A DNA stretch of 64,000 bases from Chaenocephalus aceratus (taxonomy: Eukaryota; Chordata; Actinopteri; Perciformes; Channichthyidae): NCBI GenBank assembly GCA_023974075.1, contig CM043798.1:8449673-8513672 (forward strand), given 5' to 3'. The translations under genes and the position numbers were made by a program. Numbering within the stretch: position 1 is the first letter of the stretch; each line of letters begins with the position of its first letter. Of the stretch, positions 1,376 to 60,136 are shown one piece after another. The notes beneath the pieces were generated by a model. That model saw only the letters and a list, made by a program, of their open reading frames with translations, had not been told where the DNA came from and did not search any database.

Positions 1376-1960
1376 AAATACTTTTATCTGAATACATTTG
1401 TTCTTTTTAAGAGCACTTTTTGAAATTATTTATTTATTATTTCAGTGGAACAATCCAGTGTTTGTTAACATTAACGCTTTCTTCTCTTTTTCTTGTGTTA
1501 CTAAGATACTTTTAAACACACTTTGGTGTATGCAACACTTGTTCAGATAAACAAGGTTTTTTCTTTTCTGATAAACTTACATATTTTAGTTATTTTATGT
1601 TACCAAGATACTTTGAGATACACCCTGATGTACGCAACACTTAACAAAGGGTATAATATGAAGTAGTTGGTAAGGAAGGGGTTTTTCTTTAAGGGTGCAA
1701 AACTTTAGAACAGGGTAAAATATTCATTAATTTGTATTGAATTGAGTTTTCTTTTTTTTTGATTTTCAACATACTATATGACTTTTACATATTTCTGACG
1801 TACTATACTTTTTTGACTTTTTCTGTAGAATCCTGACAAAAACTATTACTTGTTCTTAAATGATGACCTATTGCTGGAGATGAGATGAAAAAGCTACAAC
1901 GCTTAAAGAACTTTTTTTCTAAAAACTCTCAATTCTACACTGACTCCCCCCACTCAACGC
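1376..1960 (+). repeat. direct repeat unit A in palindrome arm
   Basis: This segment is repeated in the same orientation at about 2627-3200, an offset near 1.24 kb. Shared landmarks are CTTGTGTTACTAAGATACTTTT, shortened here to its core TTACTAAGATACTTTT, then GATGTACGCAACACTTAACA and GGTAAGGAAGGGGTTTTTC. Further degenerate copies of the ACCAAGATACTTT motif lie near 2265 and 2385. The arm is therefore itself built of tandem duplications. Confidence 0.7.
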
Positions 1961-2035
1961 AATAAGTCCCACCCCACTCAGCAAATCCTCAAAAACGAAG
2001 GACCCCACCAAGACGACCGTTGAAAACTAGCCATG
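1925..2035 (+). promoter_or_regulatory. leader cassette 1 (putative promoter/5'UTR)
   Basis: A conserved leader block contains TCAATTCTA, GACTCCCCC, CAACGCAAT, CACTCAGCAAATC and AAACGAAGGACC, and ends in CTAGCCATGG. It recurs at about 3150-3264 and 4430-4510 and is mirrored in the right arm. In each case an ATG follows in the same context, so it is probably a shared promoter plus 5' leader. This is inferred from repetition only; no TATA box is certain, although CATCTAAAAC in copy 2 is TATA-like. Confidence 0.45.
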
Positions 2036-2230
2036 GATCTGAGAAAAACCAAGTCTGATGTAGCCTACCCTTATTATCACCAGGATAATAGATATGGGCT
2101 TAATGACTGGATGATACAATGTAGGGGAGAGGATGTTCCCGAAGAAGAGCTCTCCTCTATATGTAATAGTATTGTAAACGAAACATTTAAAGTGGTCCTG
2201 GAATCTTCATTTTTCAGAAACATTCTGTAA
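2033..2230 (+). CDS. 65-aa hybrid ORF in left arm
   Basis: I recognise no family. The ATG lies in CCATGG directly after leader cassette 1. The first ~42 residues (with GLNDW and GEDVPEEELSSI) match the N-terminal region of the basic-protein ORF in the loop (4588-5073). The last ~20 residues (VNETFKVVLESSF) match residues ~75-87 of the 250-aa ORF (3614-4366). The ORF therefore looks like a fusion made by internal deletion of a longer gene array, and is probably not an independent gene. An inverted copy lies at 6497-6694. Confidence 0.4.
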   Translation: MDLRKTKSDVAYPYYHQDNRYGLNDWMIQCRGEDVPEEELSSICNSIVNETFKVVLESSFFRNIL

Positions 2231-2626
2231 CATTACCGAAGAAATTACACTTACTCTTTTCTTGTGTTACCAAGATACTTTTAGATACAGTTTGGTGTCT
2301 GAAAACTGAAACTGGTTGAATATGAAGTATTTTATAAGGAATTCGGATTCTTTTAAAGGCAGATTTTGGCTTTTTTTTCTCTTGCCAAGATACTTTTAGA
2401 CACACTTTGAGGGATGCAAAACCTTAAAACTAGAAAATGAAGTACAGTCTGATTAGATTTTTTCTTAAAGACTGTTTCTCTAAAAGGTAAGTTTGTGATT
2501 TTAACAATTTTCCCTGACACTTGGCAGATTTGTGTGTAATTCTCTCACAACGGAACTGTAAGATACACTTTTTATGTATGCAAAACCTTAAACTTTTTTT
2601 TTTTTTTTTTTGAAAATAAAATACTT

Positions 2627-3200
2627 TGTCTGAATACATTTTCTTTAAAGGCACTTTTTTTTATTTTAACGCTATTTCAGTGGAAAAATACAGTTTTGTT
2701 GACATCAAGGCTTTTTTCTCTTTTCTTGTGTTACTAAGATACTTTTAGACACACTTTGATGTATGCAACACTTGTTCAGTTAAACAATGGGTTTTTTTTT
2801 CTGATAAACTTACATATTTTAGTTATTTTATATTACCAAGATACTTTGAGATACACCCTGATGTACGCAACACTTAACAAAGGCTATAATATGAAGTACT
2901 TGGTAAGGAAGGGGTTTTTCCTTAAGGGTACAAAACTTTAGAACAGGGTAAAATATTCATTAAATTGTATTGAATTGAGTTTTCTTTTTTGATTTTCAAC
3001 ATACTATTTGTACACAATGACTTTTCCATATTTCTGATAAACTATACTTTTTCCGTAAAATCACGACAAACTATTACTTATTCTTAAATTTCACCTATTG
3101 CTGGAGATGAGATGAAAAAAGCTACAACGCTTAAAGAACTTTTTTGCTAAAAACTCTCAATTCTATAATTGACTCCCCCATTCAACGCAATGAGCCCCAC
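2627..3200 (+). repeat. direct repeat unit B in palindrome arm
   Basis: Second copy of the unit at 1376-1960, followed like the first by a leader cassette and a CCATGG start context. Confidence 0.7.
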
Positions 3201-3264
3201 CCTCCACTCAGCAAATCATCTAAAACGAAGGACCTCGCTAAGACGATCATTGTAAACTAGCCAT
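3150..3264 (+). promoter_or_regulatory. leader cassette 2 (putative promoter/5'UTR)
   Basis: Second copy of the conserved leader. It ends at CCATGGAGCAGAG, where the ATG opens a short 28-codon frame. The longer 98-codon frame begins downstream in another phase. Confidence 0.45.
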
Positions 3265-3309
3265 GGAGCAGAGAAAAGCCAAGACTCCCCCCACGATTGT
3301 CGGAATGAC

Positions 3310-3606
3310 GTGCCCGATTTCTTCTTCAGAAACAATTACAAAGTGTTAATGAAAAGACTTTGGCTCGCCGACTTCGTTGCAGTGATTGACCAGAGTCTTA
3401 TTGAAAAAGGCATTTGCGAGGATAAACTGAGGATAGGACGCGCTTCGGAAGCTTTTCTGCACAAGCTTGTAAAATGCAGATGCCTCAAGCAGAGACTTGA
3501 AATATCCATACAGAGTTGGATGGAGAAGAAGAAGACTAACAAACAGCAGTCGGATGGAGAAGAAGCCAGGGACTTGTTCAATGCAGTGACTTTTTTCTTT
3601 AAGTAA
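3310..3606 (+). CDS. 98-aa ORF of unknown function
   Basis: The frame opens at a GTG (3310) and has no ATG at its head. The leader ATG at 3263 is in another frame and stops after 28 codons, so a frameshift near the C-run at about 3290 may separate start and body. The product would be a small, charged, mostly helical protein, acidic/aromatic at the N terminus (PDFFFRNNYKVL) with a lysine-rich KKKTNKQQ stretch near residue 75. I recognise no family. The 3' end lies 7 bp before the ATG of the 250-aa ORF, suggesting one transcript. The mirror copy at 5225-5416 (minus) is broken by one extra base. Confidence 0.35.
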   Translation: MPDFFFRNNYKVLMKRLWLADFVAVIDQSLIEKGICEDKLRIGRASEAFLHKLVKCRCLKQRLEISIQSWMEKKKTNKQQSDGEEARDLFNAVTFFFK

Positions 3607-3613
3607 AATAAAA

Positions 3614-4366
3614 ATGGGAAACTACTTTGCAAAACGCTCTGTATATTTTGATCATAATGTAGTCATTACCCGTTTAATAAATGTGGTGATGGGGACGATT
3701 GAAAACAGAACGAGTAGTGACCCCTGTGTAAAAAGAATGGCTGAAGTTTGTAAACTACAAGACATTTTGGATATCGTTCGTTCTGGCAGTACTATTCCGG
3801 GTCATTGGGAAACGCTTGTAAACGAAACATTTAAAGTGGTCCTGGAATCTTCATTTTCCGAAACATTCTGTAACATTATCTCAGAAATGAAACAAACATC
3901 AAAAATGTATCATGTGCTCTCATTGTATGCTCTGTTTGTAGATGTAATGCATCTGTGTGTTGAAAACAGCATACACGTGAATATTTTGACTGAAGTGAAA
4001 AAACTCCATCACGATATCTCCAATAATATGGGGAATTCTAAGCTGGAGACTGTCCTGGGGATGCTACAATCAGTATCACTATTGATTTTGTGTGTGAAAA
4101 AAATAAAAAAGTGTTTTTTACATCTAAAAAATGTTGTCATCATTTATAGCAAGGGGAGCGTGTCTGATACATGTGTATTACAGTCCTTCTTGTTGTGTTT
4201 TTCAGTGTTTTCTGTGTGTCTGTACACACAAAGCACACTTCATTATCTACTTTTCAGCTTTTTTAAAAAGAAAAGTGTATCTTTCGGTAACTTTCTCAGA
4301 GAATTTAAGCATAAATCTGTCAAATGTTCAAAACAGCCTTGTTTCACTGAAATACCCTCAAAATGA
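3614..4366 (+). CDS. 250-aa ORF, possibly tail-anchored
   Basis: It starts at an ATG and runs 250 codons. The first ~18 codons lie in the palindrome arm and the rest in the unique loop. Residues ~1-140 look like a compact helical protein. A hydrophobic segment at about 148-163 (VSLLILCV) is followed by a basic KKIKK cluster, as in tail-anchored membrane proteins. The frame beyond ~165 is low-complexity and may be fortuitous readthrough. The region around residues 97-116 (SLYALFVDVMHLCVEN) faintly recalls the BH1 area of Bcl-2-type proteins, which some large DNA viruses encode, but this is a guess. A structure prediction would decide. Confidence 0.35.
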   Translation: MGNYFAKRSVYFDHNVVITRLINVVMGTIENRTSSDPCVKRMAEVCKLQDILDIVRSGSTIPGHWETLVNETFKVVLESSFSETFCNIISEMKQTSKMYHVLSLYALFVDVMHLCVENSIHVNILTEVKKLHHDISNNMGNSKLETVLGMLQSVSLLILCVKKIKKCFLHLKNVVIIYSKGSVSDTCVLQSFLLCFSVFSVCLYTQSTLHYLLFSFFKKKSVSFGNFLREFKHKSVKCSKQPCFTEIPSK

Positions 4367-4587: not shown

Positions 4588-5073
4588 ATGTTACAAAGTA
4601 GGGGAGAGGATGTTCCCGAAGAAGAGCTCTCGTCTATATCATATCCATGTAAGGTCTTTAGGACAAAAGAGGACCATGATAACATGACATATGAAGAATA
4701 TCTTTCTTTAAAAGATGGTATTATAGATAACCTTTATAGAAACAGTATATCTCATGCCACTCGCCAAGATCGCAAACGACAATTAGCAGAAAAGAATAGA
4801 AAAAGTAAAGAAAAACGAAGAAAAAGCAACATGAAAAGGAGAAGAAAAATTAAAAGCAAACGCAGAATGCGAATGAAAAGAAAAGGGACCATAGGACGCA
4901 AAACTAAAAAGACAAAAAGAAGGAAGGTGAAAAGAAAAAGAAACAAAGTGAAGAAATTTAAACTAGAGGATGGTGTTGTAGAGCCATTACCGGATCATAA
5001 TAATCTTATAGATCATCTCCCGCTAACCGACTGCTGCGAATGTGTTGAACAAATACCAATGACTACATTATGA
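4588..5073 (+). CDS. 161-aa highly basic protein ORF
   Basis: It starts at an ATG at 4588, although the related frame begins upstream at 4509 and is shifted by one extra A in an A-run. Residues ~1-65 are acidic to neutral (GEDVPEEELSS, then a Tyr/Leu-rich part). Residues ~66-125 are almost entirely Lys/Arg with a few Ser/Met. The C-terminal ~35 residues return to acidic and contain a CCECVEQ motif. The centre resembles DNA-condensing core proteins of DNA viruses or a nucleolar-type basic domain. The stop falls 16 bp inside the right arm. No family recognised. Confidence 0.4.
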   Translation: MLQSRGEDVPEEELSSISYPCKVFRTKEDHDNMTYEEYLSLKDGIIDNLYRNSISHATRQDRKRQLAEKNRKSKEKRRKSNMKRRRKIKSKRRMRMKRKGTIGRKTKKTKRRKVKRKRNKVKKFKLEDGVVEPLPDHNNLIDHLPLTDCCECVEQIPMTTL

Positions 5074-7920
5074 TCAAAATATACAGAGCGTTTTGCAAAG
5101 TAGTTTCCCATTTTTATTTTACTTAAAGAAAAAAGTCACTGCATTGAACAAGTCCCTGGCTTCTTCTCCATCCGACTGCTGTTTGTTAGTCTTCTTCTTC
5201 TCCATCCAACTCTGTATGGATATTTCAAGTCTCTGCTTGAGGCAATCTGCATTTTACAAGCTTGTGCAGAAAAGCTTCCGAAGCGCGTCCTATCCTCAGT
5301 TTATCCTCGCAAATGCCTTTTTCAATAAGACTCTGGTCAATCACTGCAACGAAGTCGGCGAGCCAAAGTCTTTTCATTAACACTTTGTAATTGTTTCTGA
5401 AGAAGAAATCGGGCATGTCATTCCGACAATCGTGGGGGAGTCTTGGCTTTTCTCTGCTCCATGGCTAGTTTACAATGATCGTCTTAGCGAGGTCCTTCGT
5501 TTTAGATGATTTGCTGAGTGGAGGGTGGGGCTCATTGCGTTGAATGGGGGAGTCAATTATAGAATTGAGAGTTTTTAGCAAAAAAGTTCTTTAAGCGTTG
5601 TAGCTTTTTCATCTCATCTCCAGCAATAGGTGAAATTTAAGAATAAGTAATAGTTTGTCGTGATTTTACGGAAAAAGTATAGTTTATCAGAAATATGGAA
5701 AAGTCATTGTGTACAAATAGTATGTTGAAAATCAAAAAAGAAAACTCAATTCAATACAATTTAATGAATATTTTACCCTGTTCTAAAGTTTTGTACCCTT
5801 AAGGAAAAACCCCTTCCTTACCAAGTACTTCATATTATAGCCTTTGTTAAGTGTTGCGTACATCAGGGTGTATCTCAAAGTATCTTGGTAATATAAAATA
5901 ACTAAAATATGTAAGTTTATCAGAAAAAAAAACCCATTGTTTAACTGAACAAGTGTTGCATACATCAAAGTGTGTCTAAAAGTATCTTAGTAACACAAGA
6001 AAAGAGAAAAAAAGCCTTGATGTCAAACAAAACTGTATTTTTCCACTGAAATAGCGTTAAAATAAAAAAAAGTGCCTTTAAAGAAAATGTATTCAGACAA
6101 AGTATTTTATTTTCAAAAAAAAAAAAAAAAAAGTTTAAGGTTTTGCATACATAAAAAGTGTATCTTACAGTTCCGTTGTGAGAGAATTACACACAAATCT
6201 GCCAAGTGTCAGGGAAAATTGTTAAAATCACAAACTTACCTTTTAGAGAAACAGTCTTTAAGAAAAAATCTAATCAGACTGTACTTCATTTTCTAGTTTT
6301 AAGGTTTTGCATCCCTCAAAGTGTGTCTAAAAGTATCTTGGCAAGAGAAAAAAAAGCCAAAATCTGCCTTTAAAAGAATCCGAATTCCTTATAAAATACT
6401 TCATATTCAACCAGTTTCAGTTTTCAGACACCAAACTGTATCTAAAAGTATCTTGGTAACACAAGAAAAAGAGTAAGTGTAATTTCTTCGGTAATGTTAC
6501 AGAATGTTTCTGAAAAATGAAGATTCCAGGACCACTTTAAATGTTTCGTTTACAATACTATTACATATAGAGGAGAGCTCTTCTTCGGGAACATCCTCTC
6601 CCCTACATTGTATCATCCAGTCATTAAGCCCATATCTATTATCCTGGTGATAATAAGGGTAGGCTACATCAGACTTGGTTTTTCTCAGATCCATGGCTAG
6701 TTTTCAACGGTCGTCTTGGTGGGGTCCTTCGTTTTAGATGATTTGCTGAGTGGGGTGGGACTTATTGCGTTGAGTGGGGGGAGTCAGTGTAGAATTGAGA
6801 GTTTTTAGAAAAAAAGTTCTTTAAGCGTTGTAGCTTTTTCATCTCATCTCCAGCAATAGGTCATCATTTAAGAACAAGTAATAGTTTTGTCAGGATTCTA
6901 CAGAAAAAAGTCAAAAAAGTATAGTACGTCAGAAATATGTAAAAGTCATATAGTATGTTGAAAATCAAAAAAAAAGAAAACTCAATTCAATACAAATTAA
7001 TGAATATTTTACCCTGTTCTAAAGTTTTGCACCCTTAAAGAAAAACCCCTTCCTTACCAACTACTTCATATTATACCCTTTGTTAAGTGTTGCGTACATC
7101 AGGGTGTATCTCAAAGTATCTTGGTAACATAAAATAACTAAAATATGTAAGTTTATCAGAAAAGAAAAAACCTTGTTTATCTGAACAAGTGTTGCATACA
7201 CCAAAGTGTGTTTAAAAGTATCTTAGTAACACAAGAAAAAGAGAAGAAAGCGTTAATGTTAACAAACACTGGATTGTTCCACTGAAATAATAAATAAATA
7301 ATTTCAAAAAGTGCTCTTAAAAAGAACAAATGTATTCAGATAAAAGTATTTTGTTAGACTATTAAGTCCACGATGGTTATATTTAACCCCTAACCCATTT
7401 GTATTATATGTTTGTTGTCCTAATAAAGCCAGAGTCACCTGAATTAATTTTGTCTCCAGACCTTTTTTATTTTTTACATTTTGTAACAATCTTAAAAACA
7501 TTTGTGGTTTGACTCTTTTTTAAAAAGTTCTTTTTCATCTATCATTTTCAACCAAGCAGCAAGAGGTCAAATTTAAGAACAAGTAATAGTTTGTCACGAT
7601 TTTATGGGAAATAGTCAGAGCGCGATGTCACATCTTAAAGACAGCTTGAACTGGATAAATGGTTAGTCTTTTTCAAACATACCGTACGTTCTGCATGGTA
7701 GTATATCTGGCCCATCGATTTAGACCCTACTACCTTAGACGCATGCCCTCAATAGGGTAGTCACGCTTTGGGAAGAGGTGTTTCATTTCACAGATCCACC
7801 TTGATTGTTATTGTGAAGAGGGACGGGGGAGGAACATTCAGAGGATGAAGAAGCATAAACATAACTTGTTTGTAAAACGGACAGCACATCAGTTTCAAGA
7901 AAGATGACACCGTGCATGAC
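5058..7920 (-). repeat. right arm of giant palindrome
   Basis: This is the inverted copy of 807-3667. Small differences break its mirror ORFs: the copy of the 98-aa ORF has one extra T near 5245 and reads only as 63 codons, whereas the mirror of the 65-aa ORF (6497-6694, minus) stays open. Beyond 7920 the symmetry stops within a few bases. Confidence 0.9.
6497..6694 (-). CDS. 65-aa hybrid ORF, mirror copy
   Basis: Inverted copy of 2033-2230 with the same 65 codons intact. Its preservation in both arms reflects the near-identity of the palindrome, not necessarily selection. Confidence 0.35.
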   Translation of the reverse strand: MDLRKTKSDVAYPYYHQDNRYGLNDWMIQCRGEDVPEEELSSICNSIVNETFKVVLESSFFRNIL

Positions 7921-7926
7921 AACACG

Positions 7927-22535: not shown

Positions 22536-22742
22536 ATGTCACACACCGTGGCTACAGTGCCTCTACACTGGCAGCGGAGGGTCCACGATGACCTACTGCG
22601 GGACGAAGCCCTTGGGGTCATTGAACGTGTGCCATACGGCGAGCCTGTGACGTGGTGCCATCGTATGGTAGTCACTCGGAAGCACGACGGTTCCCCACGC
22701 AGGACCGTGGACCTCTCCCCCCTTAACAAGTTCTGCCAACGT
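22536..22742 (+). pseudogene. reverse transcriptase N-terminal fragment
   Basis: In the frame opening at 22536: PLHWQRRVHDDLLRDEALG, VIERVPYGEPVTWCHRMVV and RTVDLSPLNKFCQRE. These are the finger motifs that start Ty3-type RT. The frame differs from the protease frame by a shift around 22500-22540. The sequence jumps to integrase right after NKFCQRE, so palm, YxDD and RNase H are deleted. Confidence 0.8.
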
Positions 22743-23140
22743 GAGCTCTACGGCGGGTATTGCCCTGGCGGGCTCAGCTGGCCTGGTCCAACACCTCCGT
22801 TCATTCTTCGCCACCTTCGGCGTACCGGAGGAGCTCTCGAGCGACGGTGGTCCGGAATTCAAGGCGAGCCACACTGAGGACTTCCTCCGCTTATGGCACG
22901 TCAAACATCGTGTGTCGTCCGTTAGCTTCCCGCAGTCGAATGGGAGGGCAGAAGTTGCGGTTAAGACAGCTAAGCGCCTCCTGATGTCCAACACCGGCCC
23001 GTCGGGCGGCCTTGATCAGGACCGCTTCCTGCGTGCTATGCTGCAGCTTTGAAACACGCCTGACCCCGACTGCAACCTCTCGCCAGCGCAGATCATCTTC
23101 GGCCGCCCCCTTCGTGGCTCGCTCTCCTTCGTGGCTCGCT
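22743..23140 (+). pseudogene. integrase catalytic core fragment
   Basis: TTAGIALAGSAGLVQHL is a variant of the usual start; here the readable landmarks are HLRSFFATFGVPEELSSDGG, PEF, and SVSFPQSNGRAEVAVKTAKR. They provide the second Asp (SDGGPEF) and the Glu (GRAEV) of the D,D-35-E triad; the first Asp lies in the deleted part. A TGA stop follows LRAMLQL at 23050. The frame resumes as NTPDPDCNLSPAQIIFGRPL and is then disturbed by a ~20-bp tandem duplication (TGGCTCGCTCTCCTTCG) near 23115-23150. Confidence 0.8.
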
Positions 23141-35196: not shown

Positions 35197-35200
35197 AGCT

Positions 35201-36301
35201 TGTTGCGAGGTAGGGGTTTTTACAACCCAACTCCTCACCGCGTGTTGTTTTGACGAGTCCTGCTTGAAATCATAACAGGGAAGGAATTAGAAGACACCAG
35301 GATACCAGTTAAACAATAATCCGTTTTAATTAAACAAAGTAGTATAATGCAATACGATATAATATAATACATTACTTATACAATTCAAAGAGTCATATAA
35401 GCAATGTGTGGAGTACTCCCGCCCTTATTCACGCACTGCGGACATCCTATTCGTCTTGTCAGCGCTTGAAGAAGAGACCCAACCACCAGAAAAACATTTC
35501 CCTAATACAAAGAAGGGGTGTCGTTTCATTGGGGAGATACCAAAACGCTATCTCACAGGGAAATCAGTGCCTGGCAGCTTTGAAAGCCACAGGTGTTGGG
35601 AAGGCACCTCATTAAAACTCAAGGAAAATGTCCCTCCCATTTGTAAAACATATCGATGGTTTACCCCAGAAAACATTATCAGGGATAATCTTTACACTCC
35701 AAACAGAAATCACCCTTAATTCTGCATCTTCCTTCTTCACAAATAGCTTAAAACACTCTTTTGATAAACAGGTAAACAGTCAAAGAAAAAACTATTGTGC
35801 TCATCTATTTCTAACAAAAAAGGGAACATTGTTTCAGAAATCTATAAAAAAACCTCTCTATATTGGAGAGGAAAAATGTACCTTTTGTTCCTTCAACTAT
35901 TAACACACAGGAATGTATAAACTCACACATATACTTATTCAAGATACATAGATTTCCTTAAAACCTGGCCTGCCAGAGATCTCAAACAGAATTTCCTCTC
36001 CCCTGGCCCACTCACCCTGTGCTGCATACCTCGACCTCCCCCACTGCAATAAAACTTATTTTTACAGCCCTTTGTCTCTCGCCATTTTAGTCCTCACATT
36101 TATGAAAGGATAAAAACAGAGAAATCACTATAAAACACAAACACAGGTATTGCTTGAACAGTATTCACTTAACTGCTACCATTTGATAATTACCAGGGAA
36201 CTCAACAGACCTCTTTTAATGTCTGGAAATTGCAACAAGACTTTCTGCCCTTTTACATGTATCACAGTTCTTTGGTACAATATCTCACATCAGTTTCCAC
36301 A
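35201..36301 (-). repeat. ERV 3' LTR
   Basis: Identical to 43051-44151 apart from one noticed A/C difference (AAGGAAAATG here, AAGGAACATG there). The small plus-strand ORFs in both LTRs are on the antisense strand of the element and are not supported as genes. Confidence 0.9.
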
Positions 36302-36313
36302 ATTCCCTCTTTT
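36302..36313 (-). promoter_or_regulatory. ERV polypurine tract
   Basis: AAAAGAGGGAAT on the minus strand, abutting TGTGGAAACTG of the 3' LTR. Just upstream is a perfect 10-bp stem hairpin, TTGCACTCTT...AAGAGTGCAA. Confidence 0.65.
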
Positions 36314-36585
36314 GCACTCTTAAAAAGAGTGCAACTTACGCAAGGCACTTGAACCATAACTATTGTCGCTCCTCTCCACTGTGTTCATCTCTCAACATTA
36401 TATTTAGAGCCCTTTAAACATTTAGAAACAGCCCTTCATAGCAATTTCTTATAGCAGAAGGAGAGGGAGACCAAAACATGTCAAAAAGCTGAGTCCCCAT
36501 ACTCGTCCTCTCCCTCCGAGACATAGGCCAACAGAGGCATTTGATACGGGGGGAGAAGCATCTTTTCCTTCAATGGTGGAACTGA

Positions 36586-37113
36586 TTAGTCTGACACATA
36601 ATGAGCGGATGCACGGCACACCACAACACCCACATGATAGTCTCTGTCCATGGATATAACTCGAATGGTTTCATCAGACCCCTCTGAGGGCAGGATGGGC
36701 TGGTTACACGCAGCACATTTAGGCGCCAGGACCCTGTGGTAGTCTTTCAGACAGTAGATTTTATTCTCAGTGTCTACAGTGAAGGGCACTCCGTCCAGGC
36801 TCTCGTTGCAGATGACGCAGCGGAAACAACCGGGGCGGTACAACTTCCCCAGGGCCTGCCGGCCTGCATGTCCATGATCAGATGTCCACCTGCGTTGCAC
36901 TTGTCTGCAGACTGCTGGAACCCAGAGTACAGAAAGTCCTCTTCACAGAAAGCCCTTCCTGCGTCATAGTAGAACGCCTTCCCTCTCAGCCTTTGACTAC
37001 AGGCGCTGCAGGTGAAGCAGCTGTCATGGTAGAGGCTGCCCATAGCTTGGCAGGCCTGGCTGGCTCCATACACCGTCTTGTTGCACTTAACACACTCCTG
37101 TTTCAGCGAAGAG
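36586..37113 (-). pseudogene. captured Ajuba/LIMD1-family LIM-domain segment
   Basis: Minus-strand frames encode LIM domain 1 ([53 protein letters not shown]), LIM 2 ([36 protein letters not shown]) and the start of LIM 3 ([27 protein letters not shown]). This order and wording are those of the Ajuba/LIMD1/WTIP family, cytoplasmic adaptors in Hippo signalling, junctions and P-bodies; LIMD1 seems nearest. It is intronless. A CAGGCCGG duplication at the LIM1/LIM2 join shifts the frame, the second Cys of NACGH is Gly, and LIM 3 diverges after DYHV and ends at a stop at 36586. Probably not a working LIM protein. Confidence 0.8.
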
Positions 37114-37261
37114 TGGAGTCCCCTGTGCCGTCCTGGCTTGCCGTGTCTTTGTCCCCTCTGATTCGCTGACGGCGGCTTCTGGGCTGCCTGCTAGAGAGAT
37201 GTCTTCCTTCTCCTCCGGCTTGCTGATGGCGGCTTCCGAGTCGATGCTGAATAGATGTCTT

Positions 37262-37440
37262 CCCGATCTTCCTTCTCCGCTCCGATGATGATGCCTCCTG
37301 GGACGACTGCTGGATGGATGTCCTCTCGATCCTCCTTCTCCGCTCCGATGATGATGCCTCCTGGGACGACTGCTGGATGGATGTCCTCTCGATCCTCCTT
37401 CTCCGCTCCGATGATGATGCCTCCTGGGACGACTGCTTTG
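37262..37440 (-). repeat. 63-bp tandem repeat inside ERV coding region
   Basis: Nearly three copies of a 63-bp unit starting CTCCGCTCCGATGATGATGC on the plus strand. As 63 is divisible by 3, each frame repeats a 21-residue motif; in the integrase frame it is VVPGGIIIGAEKEDREDIHP. Confidence 0.9.
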
Positions 37441-37620
37441 ACGAGAGCCAGATCTGTCCTGATGTCGTCTAGGGTCCTCGCAGGTGTTCTCCCGACCGCA
37501 CACTGGCTCCAGTGGTACCAGCTGTCCCCCTTTCCTTCTAGGCGGACGGCATGGGATGTCCTCTGGGTCACTCGGTCGGGGCCGGAGAGCCTGGGGTTGA
37601 CAGTCAGCCTCCTGCGTCTC
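37434..37620 (-). pseudogene. ERV integrase C-terminal remnant
   Basis: On the minus strand LSGPDRVTQRTSHAVRLEG and KGDSWYHWSQCAVGR resemble the SH3-like end of gamma/epsilon-type retroviral integrases, where a GPY...TSHAVRL...W(V/H)H-S-x-C pattern is usual. It is followed by an acidic stretch and the 63-bp repeats, then a stop at 37191. Upstream frames (to 37780) are open but unrecognisable. This supports a retroviral pol origin and places the LIM segment where env would normally begin. Confidence 0.5.
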
Positions 37621-37779
37621 GGGTCCCCCTTTTGGCGTCAACAACCTGTGTGGAGAAATCTGATACAAATCCCTCAAGCCTACGCTCCGGGGCCCTCGGC
37701 TGTTTGACCCACCAGTGCGTGGCCACTTGGAGCCTGTTGGTGGGGTGTCTTAAAACAACAGACGTCTGTGAACAGGTTT

Positions 37780-40700
37780 TCTAAATTAATTGTGCAGCTT
37801 CAGAATCTTAATACTTGGACTGTGCCCACTAAATAAGAACCCCAACATCTTTAGGTAAACTAAATAACATATTTCCATAGCTCTGAATTTCTGACAAGCA
37901 TCTGTGTTTATTTTTTAAATGAAATCCCTGAGATCCCATTAAAAATCTAAATATGCTTTGAACTGCTAATGTTTCTGGTAAAGAAACACACTAATGTTAT
38001 GGATTCAAAAACAACCAAAATCACGATACTGACAAAGTGAATGGCTTCCTGGTGATACTGCTTCTACCCGTCAGTGCTTAGATATTATCCTACTGAAAAA
38101 ATGAATACAGAATTCCAACAAACTGTCATCAAATGTCTTTCTATTACAAATGTAGATGAAATGTATATCCCCATAATGACCTAAACAATAAAGTCTATGG
38201 CTTTTACTTCTTTACCAGGCTAGTTACATGATGTTGTCCAAATTACATTCTCATTCTCATTACATTACTATGTTTTAACTTTAACTGTAAATATGTTCTT
38301 TCTACATTTCAAACCTCAGTTACTTTAATACCTGTTGATTGAAACATTAGTTGACACATTACTCACAGGTCAGGTTCTTCAGTATTCCATTCTGGACTTA
38401 CATCTCTCACAGCAGCCCCTTGGCCACTGATTATTTATCTGTGTTACCTGCTATAACTCAATCAATATTAGAGACATGTCAACATTCATCAAACAGTGTG
38501 TTATCCCCAAATATGGAGCAGGTCAATTCTAAAACTGTCAATCAATGGTCAGATTGAACAATGGAGTTCGGCAGCAGGTCCCTTTCAGTCCCTAAATGAA
38601 AATTGAACATTGTGAGGTTTACACTCCCCCTTTTTTACACATTAACTCATGTGTAAACAAAATCCTGTATGGGAAGAAAACCTTCAGGTCATAATGGATT
38701 ATAAGACAATACCAAACATTTTTTCCCAAATGTACATCCATTATTTCCACAGTAAACACTTCAGTGAAATGAAGTGTTTCTCTCCATCTTTCAGTCCTAA
38801 AAGAAACCGAATCTTCAAATGTCATAGTTTGAGTTTCACATTCTGCAAACCGCCACCTCCTGTGGGAGTGAAATATCAAGTAGGTTAGAAACGGTTTCCC
38901 CTTTTGTGCAATGTTAGGAAACCTCTCATTTCACACATTATTATCACACAAAAATAATGTGTTAGTCCAAAACATGCTTGATTAGTCATCGTTTTAAATC
39001 ATGCAGTTGCACTGATCAGGTGCAAACATACACTCACTCACACTGTCAGGTTGTAAAGTCAGGTTTTGGTCAGGTACACCTCAGAGTCAGTCATTGAGAG
39101 TGCCTTCCCAAGTTACCCTGTCGGTCAGGGTCAAAGGTCAGTTGGTCTCAGTGTTTTTGGCCATGTGTCGTGCTCTGCAGAGACTCTGATGTTCCAGCAC
39201 AGGCCAGCATCCTCCGTCTATAAAAATCTGTATATATGGAGCGCCATCATTTATTAATTCACAATTCCAACTATAATGTTCAAGATATCTCTAACTTTTC
39301 ATTGGAACAGCGGTTTCCCAAATTCCCTGAAAAGTGTTAACCAAAAAATGTCACTTCCTTATTGTACTATTACTGCAATTCATTTACCCCTAATCAATAT
39401 CAACACGTCTAATAGATGTAATTCAGAAACTTGTGTACATCACTATTATCTTGTGTCAAAACATTATCAGGATCTGTAAAGCTCTGCTATGTATTCCATA
39501 ACTCATTCTATTAATTTATCTTCAATTCTGGTGCACTTAAAGAACAATGTTACCCTCTTTAACAGTGCGTGGAACCCTGGGTGTCCTGAACATGTAACAA
39601 TCACTCCTTCCTTTATCAAGGACCTAAAAACAGAAGTAATTTCATCAATGGTTTGTAGCTGAACTTAGGAATCATCCCTCATGGTAGGTATGTTTTTACT
39701 TTTTAACATCTCTAAATGTCAGTTAATTACCAACTAAATGAATGTCCATTAGGAGGTGGTGCCGCTAGTCCTCTAAACTCATAATCTGGTGCTGTGCGCT
39801 TCCTGTGAAGCTGCAAGTAAGATTTTAAAAACCACTGCAGGGTGGGTCGAGCGACCCCTCCTCCCTATTGGTCGTCAATAATATGCACCCTTACTGGGTG
39901 ATTGAAGGCCCCACATTATTTCCCATTTCAGCATCAGCCCTCTTTACTCTAAAATTACTTTTTAAATAGGAATATGTAGAAATGGAACAAATATTCAATC
40001 TTCAGAAAAGTTCTTAACCAATGTCTATCTAGTGAACAGCCAACATATTTTAAAATGTCAGATGTATAAAAATAAGCCTAAATACTCCCTTACCATCAAA
40101 GTCCAAATCTAGACACAAGGTGAACAGTTTTGGTAACGGACAATTTAATCTAAAAACAAAACAAAATTGGACTTGTATCCTTGTTATTTGTTCTTCAAAA
40201 TACATTAGCAAATACCCTGCGAAGTATTCGCAACCCAACTAACCCTCCCTAGGATATGAAATCCATTAATCCCTTTACTCATAGTTAGTTTATATGTCTA
40301 AATTATTATGTGTGACCTAATAATCAGATGTCTTGTTTGTCAACCAAGAATATTAAACTTTAATCTTTTCAGTATTCCAGACCATCGCTTAAACAATCAG
40401 CCTCCCCTCTCAAACACTAATGTTATTGTTGTACACCACCCTCTGGAAAACTCTTGCACAGTTATGCTGTCAAATCATCGCATATTTTCCTCAGAGTCTG
40501 AACCGTCTGAGACCAGCCTGTCTCAAGATCTTGTCACATTGTGAACAGTCAGTAATGCGTTGTCCTCTGCAGCTGTAGTCAATAGGATCAATGAAACTCT
40601 TGCACTGGGATGTCCTGAGGGGGAAGGCACCTCTGGATCAATGTGCTACAGTCAGCAGACACACTTGTCCTCTGCACAGCAGGAATCCCCAAAAACTGCT

Positions 40701-41370
40701 GTTCCTCTTCCCACCACTGTTGCCTTGGCAACGAGGTACACGCAAAATGTCAAACCCTCCTCAGATGCGTTCTTTGCACAGTTCTCCTGTTTCTGTAGTG
40801 AGCAACTCTTCACCAACACACTGATTCAGAGTACAACCCAAAGGTGGCGCACAACTTTCCAGTGCCGCTGTAAATCACAATAAAACCAGCAACTGGAGAT
40901 AAACTCAATTTAAATCTCTCCCCCAAAGGGCTACAAAATAAAACGGCTGAGTGTCTATATGGTCAGGAATGCTGAAACATGTGAATGTTAAAACAAATCA
41001 ATGGCAGTAGTCTACCCAGATTCTTTACTCCATTAAAAGTAGTAAAACCACATTGTAAAATCTCTTTTGTCTAGTTGAAGTCCTGCTTACTTCATTTTTA
41101 AAATCTTCTTTAATTTGAATTGTAAATGCAACATATGTTCTCTTTAGAACACAGATATGACAGTAGCTGCTGAAACTGGTTAATAGCAGTTTTCTGTCAA
41201 CCTAGTTAAGCCTGTTGTTGTTATATCTAGTAAATATATTTTTATTTCATGTTTACTCACAAAACAATATGACATTATTTAGAAACAAGTTTTACTCTCT
41301 TACCAATAGAGTTGTTCATCAGTGAGTTCAACAGATGCAGCCACCCCCGCTTGTCCCATAAATAAATTGG
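37780..41370. other. ERV interior without readable genes
   Basis: 3.6 kb of AT-rich sequence with no ORF over about 110 codons on either strand and no retroviral motif. It is neither LTR nor any repeat seen elsewhere in this window. It may be transduced host non-coding RNA or intron, or highly decayed pol; decay would be hard to reconcile with near-identical LTRs, so I prefer acquired sequence. Confidence 0.45.
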
Positions 41371-41376
41371 TTGTGG

Positions 41377-41601
41377 TTACGTCCCACCTGGACATAGCCA
41401 CCTCTGCGTCATATGCATATGCATAACTTTGGTCGTCTTTTCTATCATTTTTTTATGGAGGAACTCAAGGTCGGCACAAGCCTTTTTCTTGTCTCCCTGT
41501 TTGAGTCCACTGAGAATCAATCTCTCAGTCTGTCTCCATTGCTCTCGGAAACTTCCGGGAATTGGGACGTGTAAATCTTTATTTTCAAACTGTCCCTCCA
41601 T
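41377..41601 (-). CDS. 74-aa ORF of the ERV, unknown function
   Basis: It starts ATCACCATGGAGG, a strong Kozak context, about 1.45 kb downstream of the ERV 5' LTR. The protein is charged and helical: EGQFENKDLHVPIPGSF, then QWRQTERLILSGLKQGDKKK and ADLEFLHKKMIEKTTKV. I recognise no family. It could be an accessory or gag-derived product, or the first exon of a captured host message. The stop is TAA at 41377. Confidence 0.4.
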   Translation of the reverse strand: MEGQFENKDLHVPIPGSFREQWRQTERLILSGLKQGDKKKACADLEFLHKKMIEKTTKVMHMHMTQRWLCPGGT

Positions 41602-41791
41602 GGTGATTATATCTTATTTATCTGACTAGGTTGCTATGTGTTCAGTGTTATTTATTAATATAATGGACAATACTCGTCGTTACTCCTAACGTAGTTAATG
41701 TATTTATTTAACTGTCCTGCCCTTAATTCAAATGTGTAACTATTTTGAGTGTAAAAAACTGATGTATTACACCCCCACTTTGAATGATGTA

Positions 41792-41827
<36 letters not shown>

Positions 41828-42918
41828 TAATCAAGAAGTACTACCAGAAGCACTTATAATGCTATTAACGGACTGGCTTACCGAAAGGCAGTTGAGTAGT
41901 ACTTGAAATGTTTTGGCTCTATTAACCCAGATATATATTTCAATTATCCTGTGTTCTTATTTTTTATTTTCCTAGTCTAACGCACTTATTGTGAGTCGCT
42001 TCGGATTAAATGCGCCAGTCAAATGGAATGTACTAATGCAAGAAGTACTACAAAATACCTCCACCAGATGGCGGCACCTCACCAGTTCCACCTCACTTGA
42101 GGGGAAAGATGCTTCTGAGAGCAACCAGCTTAAACTTTGCGTATTTATCTGACTTTTTCTCCCTTATTTATTAGTAGTTATTCACATAAAATTATTCCCC
42201 GTACAGTCTATCGAGCTTTTTTGGTGCGATGTTTATTTCAACAGATAATGCGACCTTAGAATGCGCTTCGACACGGCTTTTCAGCTATGTGACATCCTCA
42301 TGGAGCCGAAACCCAGGTCAACAGAATCCTTTATCGTCACGTTTAGCTTCTTAGATTAATAACCCCACAGAACAAGAGAACGAGATTCCGTTCGTTTCAA
42401 AATGGCTTTTTGAAATTTGCGTATCTCTCCCTTGGATTTATCACATATAATACACTCCAGCGTCCTATGAGGCTGAAGAAGTATTATTCAGTTTCGCCCT
42501 GGATGGATATCTTTTCAGGAAATCCACTGGACTCGCACCGACTGAAATTGCCGACTTGATTTCCCTAAAACCAACGGGGCCTTGCACCATAAACTTACAT
42601 TTCTCGTCGCTTCACGTGTAGCATATCTCCTAGGTTCTCCGCCTTTGCTTTATCATCATAGTAGTCCAAAGTTACCTACTTTATTCTATATGTACTGCAC
42701 AATTATACCACAATTATAGTCCGTCGTTACCTATCTATGTTAATGTATGCATTACACTATCTTATTTGATTAGTAGTCCGTCGTTACCTACCTATACTAA
42801 TATATGCATTGCATTATTTTATCATCTAGTCTATGACACTGAGAAATATTCCTGACAACTCTAAAAAATTTGAATATATCCAAATCACAGATTTCGAGTG
42901 TAACGGGTATCCGTGCTT

Positions 42919-42920
42919 AC
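42919..42920 (-). promoter_or_regulatory. candidate ERV major splice donor
   Basis: On the minus strand AACACAG|GTAAGCACG lies 130 bp after the 5' LTR, the usual place for a retroviral leader donor. Confidence 0.45.
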
Positions 42921-43030
42921 CTGTGTTTTTGTATAGAGCTCTGTTTTTAGTTGTCAGAAGTATTTCGAGGTGCCCCCCTGGACAGCTTCGTCCGCTGGCT
43001 CCTGATGTGACTCCCTGTGAACTCCCACTC

Positions 43031-43048
43031 GCTAACGTCGGGTCACCA
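43031..43048 (-). promoter_or_regulatory. ERV primer-binding site
   Basis: TGGTGACCCGACGTTAGC on the minus strand, two bases after the LTR end CGCAACA. It has the TGG start and length of a tRNA PBS; I do not assign the tRNA. Confidence 0.65.
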
Positions 43049-43050
43049 CT

Positions 43051-44151
43051 TGTTGCGAGGTAGGGGTTTTTACAACCCAACTCCTCACCGCGTGTTGTTT
43101 TGACGAGTCCTGCTTGAAATCATAACAGGGAAGGAATTAGAAGACACCAGGATACCAGTTAAACAATAATCCGTTTTAATTAAACAAAGTAGTATAATGC
43201 AATACGATATAATATAATACATTACTTATACAATTCAAAGAGTCATATAAGCAATGTGTGGAGTACTCCCGCCCTTATTCACGCACTGCGGACATCCTAT
43301 TCGTCTTGTCAGCGCTTGAAGAAGAGACCCAACCACCAGAAAAACATTTCCCTAATACAAAGAAGGGGTGTCGTTTCATTGGGGAGATACCAAAACGCTA
43401 TCTCACAGGGAAATCAGTGCCTGGCAGCTTTGAAAGCCACAGGTGTTGGGAAGGCACCTCATTAAAACTCAAGGAACATGTCCCTCCCATTTGTAAAACA
43501 TATCGATGGTTTACCCCAGAAAACATTATCAGGGATAATCTTTACACTCCAAACAGAAATCACCCTTAATTCTGCATCTTCCTTCTTCACAAATAGCTTA
43601 AAACACTCTTTTGATAAACAGGTAAACAGTCAAAGAAAAAACTATTGTGCTCATCTATTTCTAACAAAAAAGGGAACATTGTTTCAGAAATCTATAAAAA
43701 AACCTCTCTATATTGGAGAGGAAAAATGTACCTTTTGTTCCTTCAACTATTAACACACAGGAATGTATAAACTCACACATATACTTATTCAAGATACATA
43801 GATTTCCTTAAAACCTGGCCTGCCAGAGATCTCAAACAGAATTTCCTCTCCCCTGGCCCACTCACCCTGTGCTGCATACCTCGACCTCCCCCACTGCAAT
43901 AAAACTTATTTTTACAGCCCTTTGTCTCTCGCCATTTTAGTCCTCACATTTATGAAAGGATAAAAACAGAGAAATCACTATAAAACACAAACACAGGTAT
44001 TGCTTGAACAGTATTCACTTAACTGCTACCATTTGATAATTACCAGGGAACTCAACAGACCTCTTTTAATGTCTGGAAATTGCAACAAGACTTTCTGCCC
44101 TTTTACATGTATCACAGTTCTTTGGTACAATATCTCACATCAGTTTCCACA
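43051..44151 (-). repeat. ERV 5' LTR
   Basis: The 1101-bp partner of 35201-36301, upstream in element orientation. It would hold promoter and enhancer; I did not find an unambiguous TATA box. Confidence 0.9.
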
Positions 44152-44155
44152 AGCT

Positions 44156-48861: not shown

Positions 48862-50459
48862 ATGCCTCCGTTCTCTACAGATGACTTCCACAAACTTATA
48901 CAGAAGATAGCTGTGTTGGAAATGAAAATGCAACAGTTGGAAGTTAACGTGGAATTGAATGGACTATGTCGTGGGAATGACACCACTTTACCAGTGTTGC
49001 AAAATAATGGAGAAGGGTATGCTAACTCACAGCTAGTTAGCAGCTAAAAGGATTCCCAGGAAATCTACAAGTGGTAGTCCTCTCTGGAACTCTCTGGGTG
49101 CAAAGCCTAAGAGTAAATCATTTCCATGGGATTTGGGAGGACGGATAACAGGCAGAGCCCAGCGCTCTGAAATCTGTAATGCGACCGGCTGGCCTGCATT
49201 GTTGTCACCCAAGAAGAGCGCCTCTTCAACCCCTATTCATACTAGGAAACAGCAGTGGACAGCTGCTAAAGGGAGAATTACAAACAATCCTCCTAAACCA
49301 CCAAGTATGCCAATCCAGAACAGATACGCTCCGCTGAATCGGAGATCCCTTTCTGATGACCTGGATAACCTGTCCTCTTCACACAGCAGGGTAAGGACCA
49401 ATAGCTACTCCAAAAGTAAAAGGCTAGAGGGAAAGCTAACGACTGGGCCTGAAACTCTGATTGTGGGTGACTCTGCTGTAAGAGATGTAAAAGGTCTGTG
49501 TAGTAAGAACAACACCAAAGTACTCTGTTTTCCCAAGGATGTGGTCTCTGACTTGGCTGGGAAGATCCTGCATATTGGGGCTGAACATCTGACTGTGAAG
49601 AATGTGGTACTGCACATTGGAACAAATTATGTTGTGAAACAAGAGTCAGAAGTGCTGAAAAAAGACTTTAAATGTCTGTTGGAAACTGCCAGCTCTCTAA
49701 ATGCAGAGGTGTTCATCAGTGGCCCTCTACCGCCAGTCAGAAGAGGAGTGGAGAGATTCAGCAGATTGTTTGCACTGAACACCTGGCTTTCAACTGCCTG
49801 TACTGACCATTCTGTCCATTTTATTGACAATTTTAACTTTTTCTGGGACCGCAGACATCTTTGTAAGGCAGATGGAGTTTGCGTGAACAAGTCAGGAGTG
49901 AAATTGTTTATCTCTAACATATTCAACTGCCTGCATCATCAATCTGTTCCCTCTGCCAAGGACAAGCGGCAAGAGGAATCAAAACAAGAGAAAGACACAA
50001 CACATCGCGCAGAAAACCCTGAAGAATTATCACTGCACCCGCCTGAGGAATGTTCTGATTATGGGAGACCTATGAGACATATGGAGGAGTCTCCACTGCC
50101 CGTCACCCCCCCCCCCTGTCAACGCCTTTGAGGATACTCCGTTCACCCTTTCACCCTCGCCCACCCTCCTTGAGATCGCTGAACACACGAAGAAGATACA
50201 GAGGGTTGGCACCGATTCCTTCCTGGATTTCAAAGACCAAACTAAGGCGATACGCAGGGCTGGCAGCATGTCCTTTACCCCCGCTCCTCAACGACGCCCA
50301 CCAAAATCACCGCAGAGACGCGCACCATCTCCCCTGTCTTCATCACCGCGCCTACGTCAACCACCTCCCCCCCCTGGCAGCATGTCCTTTACCCCCGCAC
50401 CATCTCCCCCATCTCCTGATAAGGATGTGTGTGTACAAAACGCAACAAACTCTTACTGA
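48862..50459 (+). pseudogene. L2 ORF1 with SGNH esterase domain
   Basis: It starts at ATG 48862 (MPPFSTDDFHKLIQKIAVLE), a coiled-coil-like N terminus ending at TAA 49045. The body continues from 49133 in another frame. SGNH blocks are visible: TLIVGDSAVRDVKG (Ser, ~49460), NVVLHIGTNYV (Asn, ~49605), FISGPLPP (~49725) and KADGVCVNKSG (~49870), where the usual D-G-x-H has Cys for His. Near 50107-50116 a C-run shifts the frame into FEDTPFTLSPSPTLLEIAEH and a Pro-rich end (TAA/TGA near 50459). ORF1 binds LINE RNA; the esterase role is unclear even in intact copies. Confidence 0.75.
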
Positions 50460-50684
50460 TATGTGATGGGTCCAGGCTCAAGGGCGTATGGCACTCTCAA
50501 CTCTTTCCAGGACATGCCGGGGCCCTGCCTGCCTATAGCTTTGCCAATATCTGTGTTGATAGGTAATAGATTAAGAGCGGTGAATCATTTTAGAAACAGG
50601 AAGCGCTCAAACGTTTGTGTGAGTTTATCTAATTTAGCATTGATTCCATGTCAGCCACAGCTTGTTACAAAAAACATGACTGAT

Positions 50685-53491
50685 ACTGTGTTGAACTAGC
50701 TTTATTAAATGTCAGGTCTTTGGCAGGAAAAACATTTTTAATCAATGATTTTATCACTGAGCACAATCTCGATTTTATGTTTTTAACAGAAACTTGGATT
50801 GAACAAAATAACAGTGCAGCTGTTCTTATCGAATCAACCCCTCCCAACTTTAGTTTTATGAGTCAGAAAAGAATGCATAAGAAAGGGGGTGGAGTTGCTA
50901 TTCTGTTCAATGATTCCCTTCAATGCAGGAAGACATCGTATGGAAACTTTGATTCTTTTGAATATGTGGCCCTTCAGCTGAAATGCTCCTCTCGAGCTCT
51001 GTTCCTAAATATCTATAGACCACCCAAATACTGTGCAAGCTTTTTTGATGACTTTACTGAACTGCTGTCTATAGTGTGTATTGACTTTGACCGTCTAGTC
51101 ATTGTTGGTGATTTTAACATCCATGTTGACAACCCCCAGGACAGAGGGGCTAAAGAACTGTTTTGTGTTCTTGATAGCTATGGACTGACTCAGCATGTGA
51201 CGGAGCCCACGCACAATAAGGGGCACACTCTGGACTTAATTATCTCAAAGGGTCTGAATATCTCTAAGGTTGTGGTGACTGATGTTGCACTCTCTGACCA
51301 TTCCTGTGTTTTCTTTGAGAGCTCTATTTCTGTTCACAAAAATGTTCAAAAAGAGGTAACCACAAAGCGATATTTAACTGAAAATACTAGGGAAATGTTT
51401 ACTCAGAATTTTTCTTCCACACTTGCCCCTGCTAACATCTCAGTAAATGAGCTAGTAGATCATTTTAATTAAAAAATTAAAAATGTTATAGATGCCATTT
51501 CTCCAACTAAGGTAAAGGAAGTGACTGGGAAGAAAATATCTCCATGGAGAAAGGCCATGACCGTGAAAACAGAAAAAAGAGAATGTCGAAAAGCTGAACG
51601 CAGGTGGCGAAAAACAAATCTCCAGGTTCACTTTGAAATCTATAAAGAGAGACTTGGCCTTTATAATTTGGAATTGAAAAACGCACGACAATCGTTCTTC
51701 TCTGACATCATTACCAAAAACAAAAACAATGCACGTGCCTTGTTTGCTACCGTCGACAGACTAACTAACCCCCCAGTGTCAGTAGCCTCTGCATTTCTAT
51801 CCACCAGGGCGTGCAATGATTTTGCCTCCTTTTTCACTGACAAAATTCAGAAAATCAGACAAGCAGTCAGTGCCTCTGCATCAGGAACAGCAAATGCGTT
51901 GTCTCTGTGTCCACCTAATAACAATTCAAGCACCATGACACAATTCCATCAGATTAAGGATAAAAACCTAGAGGACATTATACAACTTCTGAAATCCTCC
52001 TCCTGCTGCCTTGATATTATTCCAACAGGATTTTTCACAGATGTTTTTCATTGCATGGCCTCAGATCTACTTCATATAGTAAACAAATCTCTTCACTCAG
52101 GTATTTTTCCACAGGCCCTGAAAACTGCAGTCATTAAACCGCTCTTAAAAAAGAATAATCTAGATGCTTCAGTAATGAACAATTACAGGCCCATATCAAA
52201 CCTCCCATTTCTGGGTAATATCATTGAAAAAGTGGTTTTTCAACAGTTGAGTAATTTCTTGCATTTAAATAACTGTTTGGATGTGTTCCAGTCAGGCTTT
52301 CGTCCAAACCACAGCACTGAGACTGCTCTTGTAAAGGTCTTTAATGACATCCACTTAAACACAGACAGTGGCAGAACTTCAGTGTTAGTATTATTAGATC
52401 TCAGTGCTGCGTTTGACACTGTTGACCACAGCATATTACTAGACCGACTGGAAAACTGGGTGGGACTTTCGGAAACAGTTCTAAATTGGTTTGAATCCTA
52501 CTTAAAGGACAGAAACAACTTTGTTTCTATAGGTACATACACATCTGAGTTGACAAATATGACATGTGGGGTTCCTCAAGGCTCCATCTCGGGGCCTCTT
52601 CTCTTTAACGTCTACATGCTACCACTGGCTCAGATAATGAAAAACAACAAAATAAGTTACCATAGCTATGCAGATGACACACAAATCTACGTAACAATTT
52701 CACCAGGAGACTATGCTCCAATTCAAACACTGGGTAAGTGCATTGAACAAATCAATGACTGGATGTGTCAGAACTTTCTCCAATTAAACAAAGATAAAAC
52801 TGAGGTAATGGTTTTTGGAGCAAAGTCAGAACGTATAAAAGTGAGCGCTGAGCTTCTGTCTGCAATGTTCAAAACAACAGATAAAGCCAGAAATCTAGGT
52901 GTAGTCATGGACTCTGACCTGAGTTTCAACAGTCACATTAAAACAGTTACTAAATCAGCCTACTATCACCTAAAGAATATATCTAGGAGACTAATGTCAC
53001 AGCAGGATTTGGAAATACTTGTCCATGCGTTTATATTCAGTAGACTCGACTACTGCAATGGTGTCTTCACAGGTCTCACTAAAGAATCTATTAGGAAGCT
53101 GCAGCTGATTCAGAACGCTGCTGCTCGAGTCCTCACTAACACTAAGAAAGTGGATCACATCACTCCTGTTCTGAAGTCTTTACACTGGCTTCCTGTGTGT
53201 CAAAGAATAGATTTCAAAATACTGCTGCTGGTTTATAAAGCACTGAATGGTTTAGGCCCAAATTACATTTCTGACCTCCTGCTAAATTATGAACCATCCA
53301 GATCTCTCAGGTCTTCAGGGACTGGTCAGCTTTCTGTCCCCAGAGTCAGAACTAAACATGGTAAAGCAGCGTTCAGTTATTATGCTCCAAATATCTGGAA
53401 CAAACTCCCAGAAACCTGCAGGTCCGCTGCAACTCTGACTACTTTTAAATCCAGGCTGAAGACTCTTCTTTTTGTTGCTGCTTTTAATTGA
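50685..53491 (+). pseudogene. L2 ORF2, endonuclease plus reverse transcriptase, one stop
   Basis: One frame throughout, interrupted only by TAA at 51470-51472. The head ELALLNVRSL has no upstream ATG. APE endonuclease landmarks are FLTETW (~50790), VGDFNIH (~51108) and LSDHS (~51292). RT landmarks are NNYRPISNLPFLGNIIEKVV (~52180), FQSGFRPNHSTETALVKVF, LLDLSAAFDTVDHSILLDRL, CGVPQGSISGPLLFNVYM and the catalytic YADDTQ at ~52668. The C-terminal LHWLPVCQRIDFKILLLVYK is typical of L2/Maui-type elements. A single mutation event separates it from an uninterrupted frame, so it is probably young. Confidence 0.85.
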
Positions 53492-60000: not shown

Positions 60001-60024
60001 TTTGGAGAAAAGTGACACCTCACT

Positions 60025-60046
60025 TGGGGTATTTGACAAACTGACA
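60025..60046 (-). ncRNA. mir223: mature miR-223-3p
   Basis: 22 nt, beginning TGTCAGTTTGTC and ending AAATACCCCA on the minus strand. The seed is GTCAGTT. This is the dominant arm in vertebrates. Confidence 0.95.
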
Positions 60047-60067
60047 CTCAGCGAAACAAGAGTGTCA

Positions 60068-60089
60068 AACTCAGCTTGTCAAATACACG
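60068..60089 (-). ncRNA. mir223: mature miR-223-5p
   Basis: 22 nt, beginning CGTGTATTTGAC on the minus strand and ending AAGCTGAGTT; same as the known vertebrate passenger arm. Confidence 0.9.
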
Positions 60090-60136
60090 AAGTGGGGGCC
60101 TGATCCGGGGAAGACTGGCTCTGTGGAGTAAACAAC

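Follow-up and report, generated by a model that had tools for sequence, protein, structure and literature searches.

The window analysed here is a 64,000-nucleotide stretch of the genome of the icefish Chaenocephalus aceratus. On its minus strand, at 35201-44151, lies an element of endogenous retrovirus (ERV) type, which carries an intronless fragment of the host gene limd1 between its long terminal repeats (LTRs). The two LTRs differ at only one of 1101 bases, have the termini TGT..ACA (of the TG..CA form), and are flanked on either side by AGCT, a target-site duplication within the range of 4-6 bp. Read on the minus strand, the sequence TGGTGACCCGACG, which resembles a primer-binding site (PBS), stands two bases past the 5' LTR, and an A/G-rich tract stands directly before the 3' LTR, both recognized by eye. 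We take the PBS-like sequence (TGGTGACCCGACGT) to be tRNA-Trp-like. The original prediction, made from the letters of the window, had described this pair of 1101-bp LTRs with one difference, the AGCT duplication, the PBS and the polypurine tract as a young fish ERV-type insertion on the minus strand, and all of these were borne out.

The segment 36630-37097 consists of limd1 exons 2-6 and part of exon 7, with five exon joins and no introns (exon 1 is taken as the exon which ends in DDYFG). In the resident limd1 gene, on contig C16, exons 2-7 are spread over about 10 kb and separated by GT-AG introns, whereas between the LTRs of the element they directly adjoin each other. Of 464 aligned bases, 450 are identical in the segment and the resident gene. 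On the left the segment begins with the first base of exon 2, immediately preceded by GAAACAG, and on the right it breaks off after 52 bases of exon 7, where 37 filler bases and then viral sequence come next. The LIM span was first given as 36586-37113; LIM coding sequence is present there, but the span overshoots at both ends, because 37098-37113 and 36586-36592 are viral and 36593-36629 is the filler. We tried the filler as a remnant of LIM3 and rejected it, as it has no LIM3 similarity and 315 of 500 shuffles scored as high. Pfam found LIM at E values of 1.8e-12 and 1e-11 in two different frames of the element, a 2-nt insertion is present at the exon 4/5 join, and the piece has 2 nt fewer than the host near its left edge. 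It means that the LIM frame is now shifted, as had been supposed.

LIMD1 and WTIP proteins were compared with the piece, using only proteins aligned over at least 70 residues on both halves. The piece equals Eleginops LIMD1 at 141 of 152 residues and other proteins named LIMD1 at 120-138 of 152, with the exception of herring (93). Proteins named WTIP share at most 116 residues with it, and one unnamed protein shares 117. On the LIM2 half alone, an ajuba-named protein matched 60 of 76 residues and Eleginops LIMD1 72 of 76. By these sequence comparisons the donor is the host's own limd1, not ajuba or wtip, so that of the earlier assignment to Ajuba/LIMD1 only the second name is retained.

Copies of the same piece are abundant in the genome. 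We searched 1,064,297,438 bp in 3032 contigs. A 121-bp LIM query gave 281 first-look candidates, which are not verified copies, and the 40 scored among them all matched at 99-100%; a query with the viral pol tail gave 705 and one with the LTR 1077 first-look candidates, also unverified counts, with 40 scored in each case. Sixty copies were read: the window copy, 39 other LIM-query copies and 20 of 34 further pol-tail places. Fifty had a long LIM piece, seven a LIM piece with an internal deletion and three none (57 with LIM), where 40 of the 60 were found by the LIM query and hence carry LIM by way of selection. For the count of shared features we used the 50 copies, out of 60, in which the LIM match reached 400 bases or more, leaving out the seven with the deletion and the three LIM-less ones. 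GAAACAG precedes exon 2 in 50 of 50 (small variants inside the exon included), and four differences from the resident limd1 are common to 50, 50, 49 and 49 of these 50 copies.

Eight LIM-carrying insertions have LTR pairs of their own, seven with a perfect 4-bp duplication and one with three of four bases matching; therefore they are independent insertions, and the spread of the element is observed. Among the 39 other LIM-query copies, in 21 the LIM region is followed by this LTR and 18 have no match to it. Five of these 18 (L002, L021, L035, L039, L043) have a different, putative LTR-like start after the polypurine tract. On contigs C22 and C6, respectively, the LIM copies L006/L007 and L029/L030 form pairs with a common orientation and a distance of about 7 kb; in L030 the PBS sequence comes after an LTR, an arrangement like that of a tandem pair with one LTR in common.

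Relatives without the host piece were also found, in 3 of the 20 pol-tail copies read. Judged by eye, viral sequence appears to pick up again near the insertion point in these copies, with little lost. According to the original prediction, siblings without LIM and a junction outside the LTRs would speak against transduction; such siblings exist, but both junctions of LIM are located inside the LTR pair, as is expected under transduction.

The same chimera is found in other icefishes. Two Champsocephalus proteins, P0040 and P0042, have the same LIM piece with the derived YDAG residues and the deletion of the seven copies, and also the same viral sequence after LIM, with a score of 61, where the best shuffles reached 37 and 29 (none of 500 as good). 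The Pseudochaenichthys protein P0009 has the appearance of the LIM-less form, in which 524 bases including LIM are skipped. Its tail scored 45 against a shuffle maximum of 44, narrowly better than all 500, and because this match is weak when taken alone, the case for LIM-less siblings is put on the three genomic copies. A further predicted gene with a similar LIM piece, P0037 of Pseudochaenichthys, is TRIM29-like by name and has no flanking viral sequence, and it may come from the element. For annotation, this is a warning that icefish LIM "genes" can be pieces of an element (P0040, P0042 and perhaps P0037).

At assumed rates of 1e-8 to 2.5e-9, the single LTR difference gives the window insertion an age of 0.05-0.18 million years, with an upper bound of about 1.0. 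Seven other LIM copies showed 0, 1, 1, 0, 1, 0 and 6 substitutions between their LTRs, and 0, 6, 0, 0, 3, 5 and 3 gapped bases. Between the LIM piece and resident limd1, 14 of 464 bases (3.0%) are different. This is some 33-fold the divergence of the LTRs, and therefore the capture long predates the insertion in the window. The chimera is also present in the Champsocephalus proteins, so the capture is expected to have preceded the divergence of these icefishes. As dated from sequence divergence, the insertion is young and the capture older. That the ERV captured limd1 within the window provirus itself, very recently, as first proposed, fits the one difference in 1101 LTR bases, but has practically no probability left: it is refuted by the junction and differences shared by the 50 long-LIM copies, and the 33-fold divergence and the two Champsocephalus proteins also speak against it. 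The capture is placed instead in an ancestor of a many-copy family.

Retroviral transduction is marked by three things seen here: host exons already spliced, a left junction that coincides with an exon boundary, and a right junction that falls within an exon. We consider it very probable that this is a non-autonomous endogenous retroviral element with a transduced, spliced fragment of host limd1, as the original prediction had it for the intronless LIM segment. In an icefish ancestor, a proviral transcript would have been spliced to limd1 exon 2, which is consistent with the observed junction at the exon boundary. Reverse transcriptase may then have switched templates, so that limd1 exon 7 was joined back to the viral sequence that directly follows pol. 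The chimera would have been copied in trans by the enzymes of related elements before it spread through the independent insertions described above, and the window copy is a very recent insertion.

An alternative is that a processed pseudogene of limd1, made by a long interspersed nuclear element (LINE), landed in a provirus and was carried along. Several joined exons without introns would be expected from this too. LINE retrocopies, however, keep the 3' end of the mRNA, while here the right edge lies inside exon 7, and no limd1 3' untranslated region, later exon or poly(A) was found in the sequence after it. In all 50 long-LIM copies the left edge coincides with an exon boundary. We therefore give this origin a very slight chance.

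Several points weigh against retroviral transduction. No GT donor is visible on the viral side in the three LIM-less copies, which are diverged there, and their BLAST match to the left flank ends 82-135 bases before the insertion point. The CAG before exon 2 is also the end of host intron 1, so a join by microhomology is possible. The 37-base filler at the right junction has no explanation. One of the four shared differences, at segment base 64, probably arose in the resident gene, because the copies have the same state as Eleginops LIMD1 at this position.

What remains of the virus is limited. The open reading frame (ORF) 37194-37637 shows 54-83% identity over the aligned part to all 11 proteins found (62% in Gymnodraco, 80% in Pseudochaenichthys), one of which, P0011, matches Pfam MLVIN_C; the ORF itself has no Pfam match. 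Because of these relatives, including the MLVIN_C match, we assign it as an integrase tail, which agrees with the integrase-like end noticed before. Repeats of 21 amino acids like those encoded at 37245-37437 are also found in the siblings P0001 and P0003. A Pfam scan of 62 minus-strand pieces of at least 28 amino acids gave no retroviral gene, and among 81 plus-strand pieces of at least 28 amino acids there was one viral name, Baculo_8kDa (E = 0.0012), taken as chance. Thus in the 143 pieces scanned, gag, pro, pol and env were not found, the integrase tail alone is recognizable, and the element is a defective derivative, not a complete ERV. The integrase tail had no credible match among solved structures. 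The pol tail, an interior ORF and the LIM ORF had no relative in IMG/VR, and a pattern of LTR and PBS gave no match in viral contigs and none in genome contigs. Two further pieces compared with solved structures, ORF 41380-41613 (a single match at E = 1.2) and the pol-like piece 39506-39664 (no match), were not assigned to gag or reverse transcriptase. The features are collected in Table 1.

Table 1. Features of the limd1-carrying element, in window positions.
Feature	Position	Strand	Remark
Target-site duplication AGCT, left	35197..35200	.	sequence read
3' LTR, 1101 bp	35201..36301	-	1 difference vs 5' LTR
Polypurine tract AAAAGAGGGAAT	36302..36313	-	by eye, adjoins 3' LTR
Viral sequence downstream of the captured piece	36314..36592	-	part matches tails of P0009 and P0040/P0042
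Filler, 37 bases, right junction	36593..36629	-	also present in copy L043
limd1 exon 7, first 52 of 69 bases	36630..36681	-	vs resident gene
limd1 exon 6, 52 bases	36682..36733	-	vs resident gene
limd1 exon 5, 133 bases here vs 131 in host	36734..36866	-	2-nt insertion at exon 4/5 join
limd1 exon 4, 63 bases, one LIM2 cysteine changed	36867..36929	-	vs resident gene
limd1 exon 3, 68 bases	36930..36997	-	vs resident gene
limd1 exon 2, 100 bases here vs 102 in host	36998..37097	-	left edge is the exon's first base
Viral pol tail (integrase C-terminal region and repeat-bearing extension), frames broken	37098..37690	-	
63-bp tandem repeat, 3.1 copies, encodes 21-aa repeats	37245..37437	-	
A+T-rich interior without recognizable viral genes	37800..43034	-	
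Possible leader splice donor CAG/GTAAGCA	42914..42923	-	weak: 0.68 chance matches expected in window
PBS-like sequence TGGTGACCCGACGT	43035..43048	-	by eye
5' LTR, 1101 bp	43051..44151	-	paired with 35201..36301
Target-site duplication AGCT, right	44152..44155	.	sequence read

A stretch of about 1.5 kb of the interior is present in six of the seven other LIM-carrying copies (1401-1500 bases covered), and the seventh, L087, has 497 bases of it. The sharing of this stretch means that the unit itself moves, without viral genes, and an interior that lacks element genes and is moved as a unit is like that of large retrotransposon derivatives (LARDs). We infer that the unit works as such a derivative, moved in trans. 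In L087 the 497 shared bases are followed by a 241-aa frame with a PPPY motif (L087:775-1500, minus strand), which is gag-like by eye only and has no Pfam match.

The captured piece does not look like a maintained gene. In 40 copies we counted 49 non-fixed variants, 17, 14 and 18 at codon positions 1, 2 and 3 (p = 0.77), a count in which three mismatches, at the exon 4/5 join, come from an uncertain part of the alignment. The 2-nt insertion at that join is present in 34 of 40 copies, and the LIM frame is uninterrupted over the matched stretch in only 2 of 50 (a start codon was not required). Because of the even spread over codon positions, the broken frames and the common insertion, the LIM piece looks like a neutral passenger without detectable selection in the copies read. 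That it encodes a working LIM protein kept by the element or the host would agree with the two unbroken copies and with the gene models containing the piece predicted in Champsocephalus and, less surely, in Pseudochaenichthys. This is very unlikely in view of the variant spread and the insertion, and also because LIM3 is truncated and the N-terminal part of LIMD1 is absent.

LIMD1 has roles in the Hippo pathway, in HIF-dependent oxygen sensing and in bone turnover, which touch on known traits of icefishes, namely their lack of haemoglobin and their weak ossification. Scores of near-identical limd1 pieces, transcribed in either orientation from LTRs or neighbouring genes, might feed small RNAs or LIM-only peptides that alter the resident icefish limd1. 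We regard this as a long shot.

Other features were seen elsewhere in the window. An inverted repeat of about 2.86 kb (806-3667 and 5058-7921, 99.5% identical) has a spacer of 1390 bp. An integrase-core-like fragment, below the Pfam cut-off, lies at 22741-23052 (plus strand), and a LINE-like set at 49133-53491 (plus strand) has in a row a GDSL-like ORF (weak, below the Pfam cut-off), an endonuclease ORF and a reverse-transcriptase ORF. A mir-223 microRNA precursor (60007-60113, minus strand, Rfam 95.1 bits) is about 16 kb from the element.

It is rare to find the capture of a host gene by a germline retroelement documented in a single genome by the donor gene, relatives that lack LIM and numerous daughter copies. 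In this genome the comparison with host limd1 and the search for siblings, both proposed with the original prediction, gave the exon joins with 14 of 464 bases divergent and no introns, and copies both with LIM (57 of 60) and without (3 of 60). Since tens of copies show both junctions and what decayed afterwards, it becomes possible to test how transduction proceeded and what became of a captured gene. Among the papers that our searches of open-licence PMC listed, we noticed none on limd1 capture or on an icefish element of this kind, and a term search within a review of fish ERVs (PMC4977317) gave no mention of cyclin, host genes, capture, transduction or oncogenes.

LARDs were reportedly the subject of Kalendar et al. 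(2004), and Jamain et al. (2001) are said to have shown transduction of FAM8A1 by a human endogenous retrovirus. In the part of PMC6987440 available, the FAM8A1 case likewise has a host gene in a germline endogenous retrovirus, but concerns another gene and primates. LARDs also have a long interior without element genes between mobile LTRs and are relocated in trans; the accessible text of PMC6431247 describes them from barley and its relatives, whereas the icefish element is vertebrate and retroviral, and contains a host cDNA piece and an integrase remnant.

Acute transforming retroviruses also carry spliced host exons between viral sequences, are defective for viral genes, and show a left junction at a splice boundary and a right one inside an exon (PMC4299795, in part). 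The icefish element differs as a germline element family and not a tumour virus, with no evidence of transforming activity, and its piece stands after pol with little viral sequence lost there, as judged by eye. Its donor, LIMD1, is described as a tumour suppressor.

Two close cases are crocodilian. CrocERV29 captured KIT-ligand mRNA and CrocERV31 nectin3 mRNA (Chong et al. 2014, PMC4299795, in the portion available to us). From the same portion, these ERVs resemble the icefish element in having host mRNA between the LTRs downstream of pol, a capture older than single insertions and inferred to precede species splits, and close relatives without the host piece (PMC4299795). Purifying selection was reported there on the captured frames, whereas none was seen in icefish. 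Nectin3 is described in six A. mississippiensis insertions and, lacking a complete frame, in an A. sinensis group (PMC4299795). The icefish piece covers exons 2-7 only, is disrupted in almost every copy read and is present in more copies. Host-gene capture by ERVs is thus known, and the icefish element is an amplified fish variant of it.

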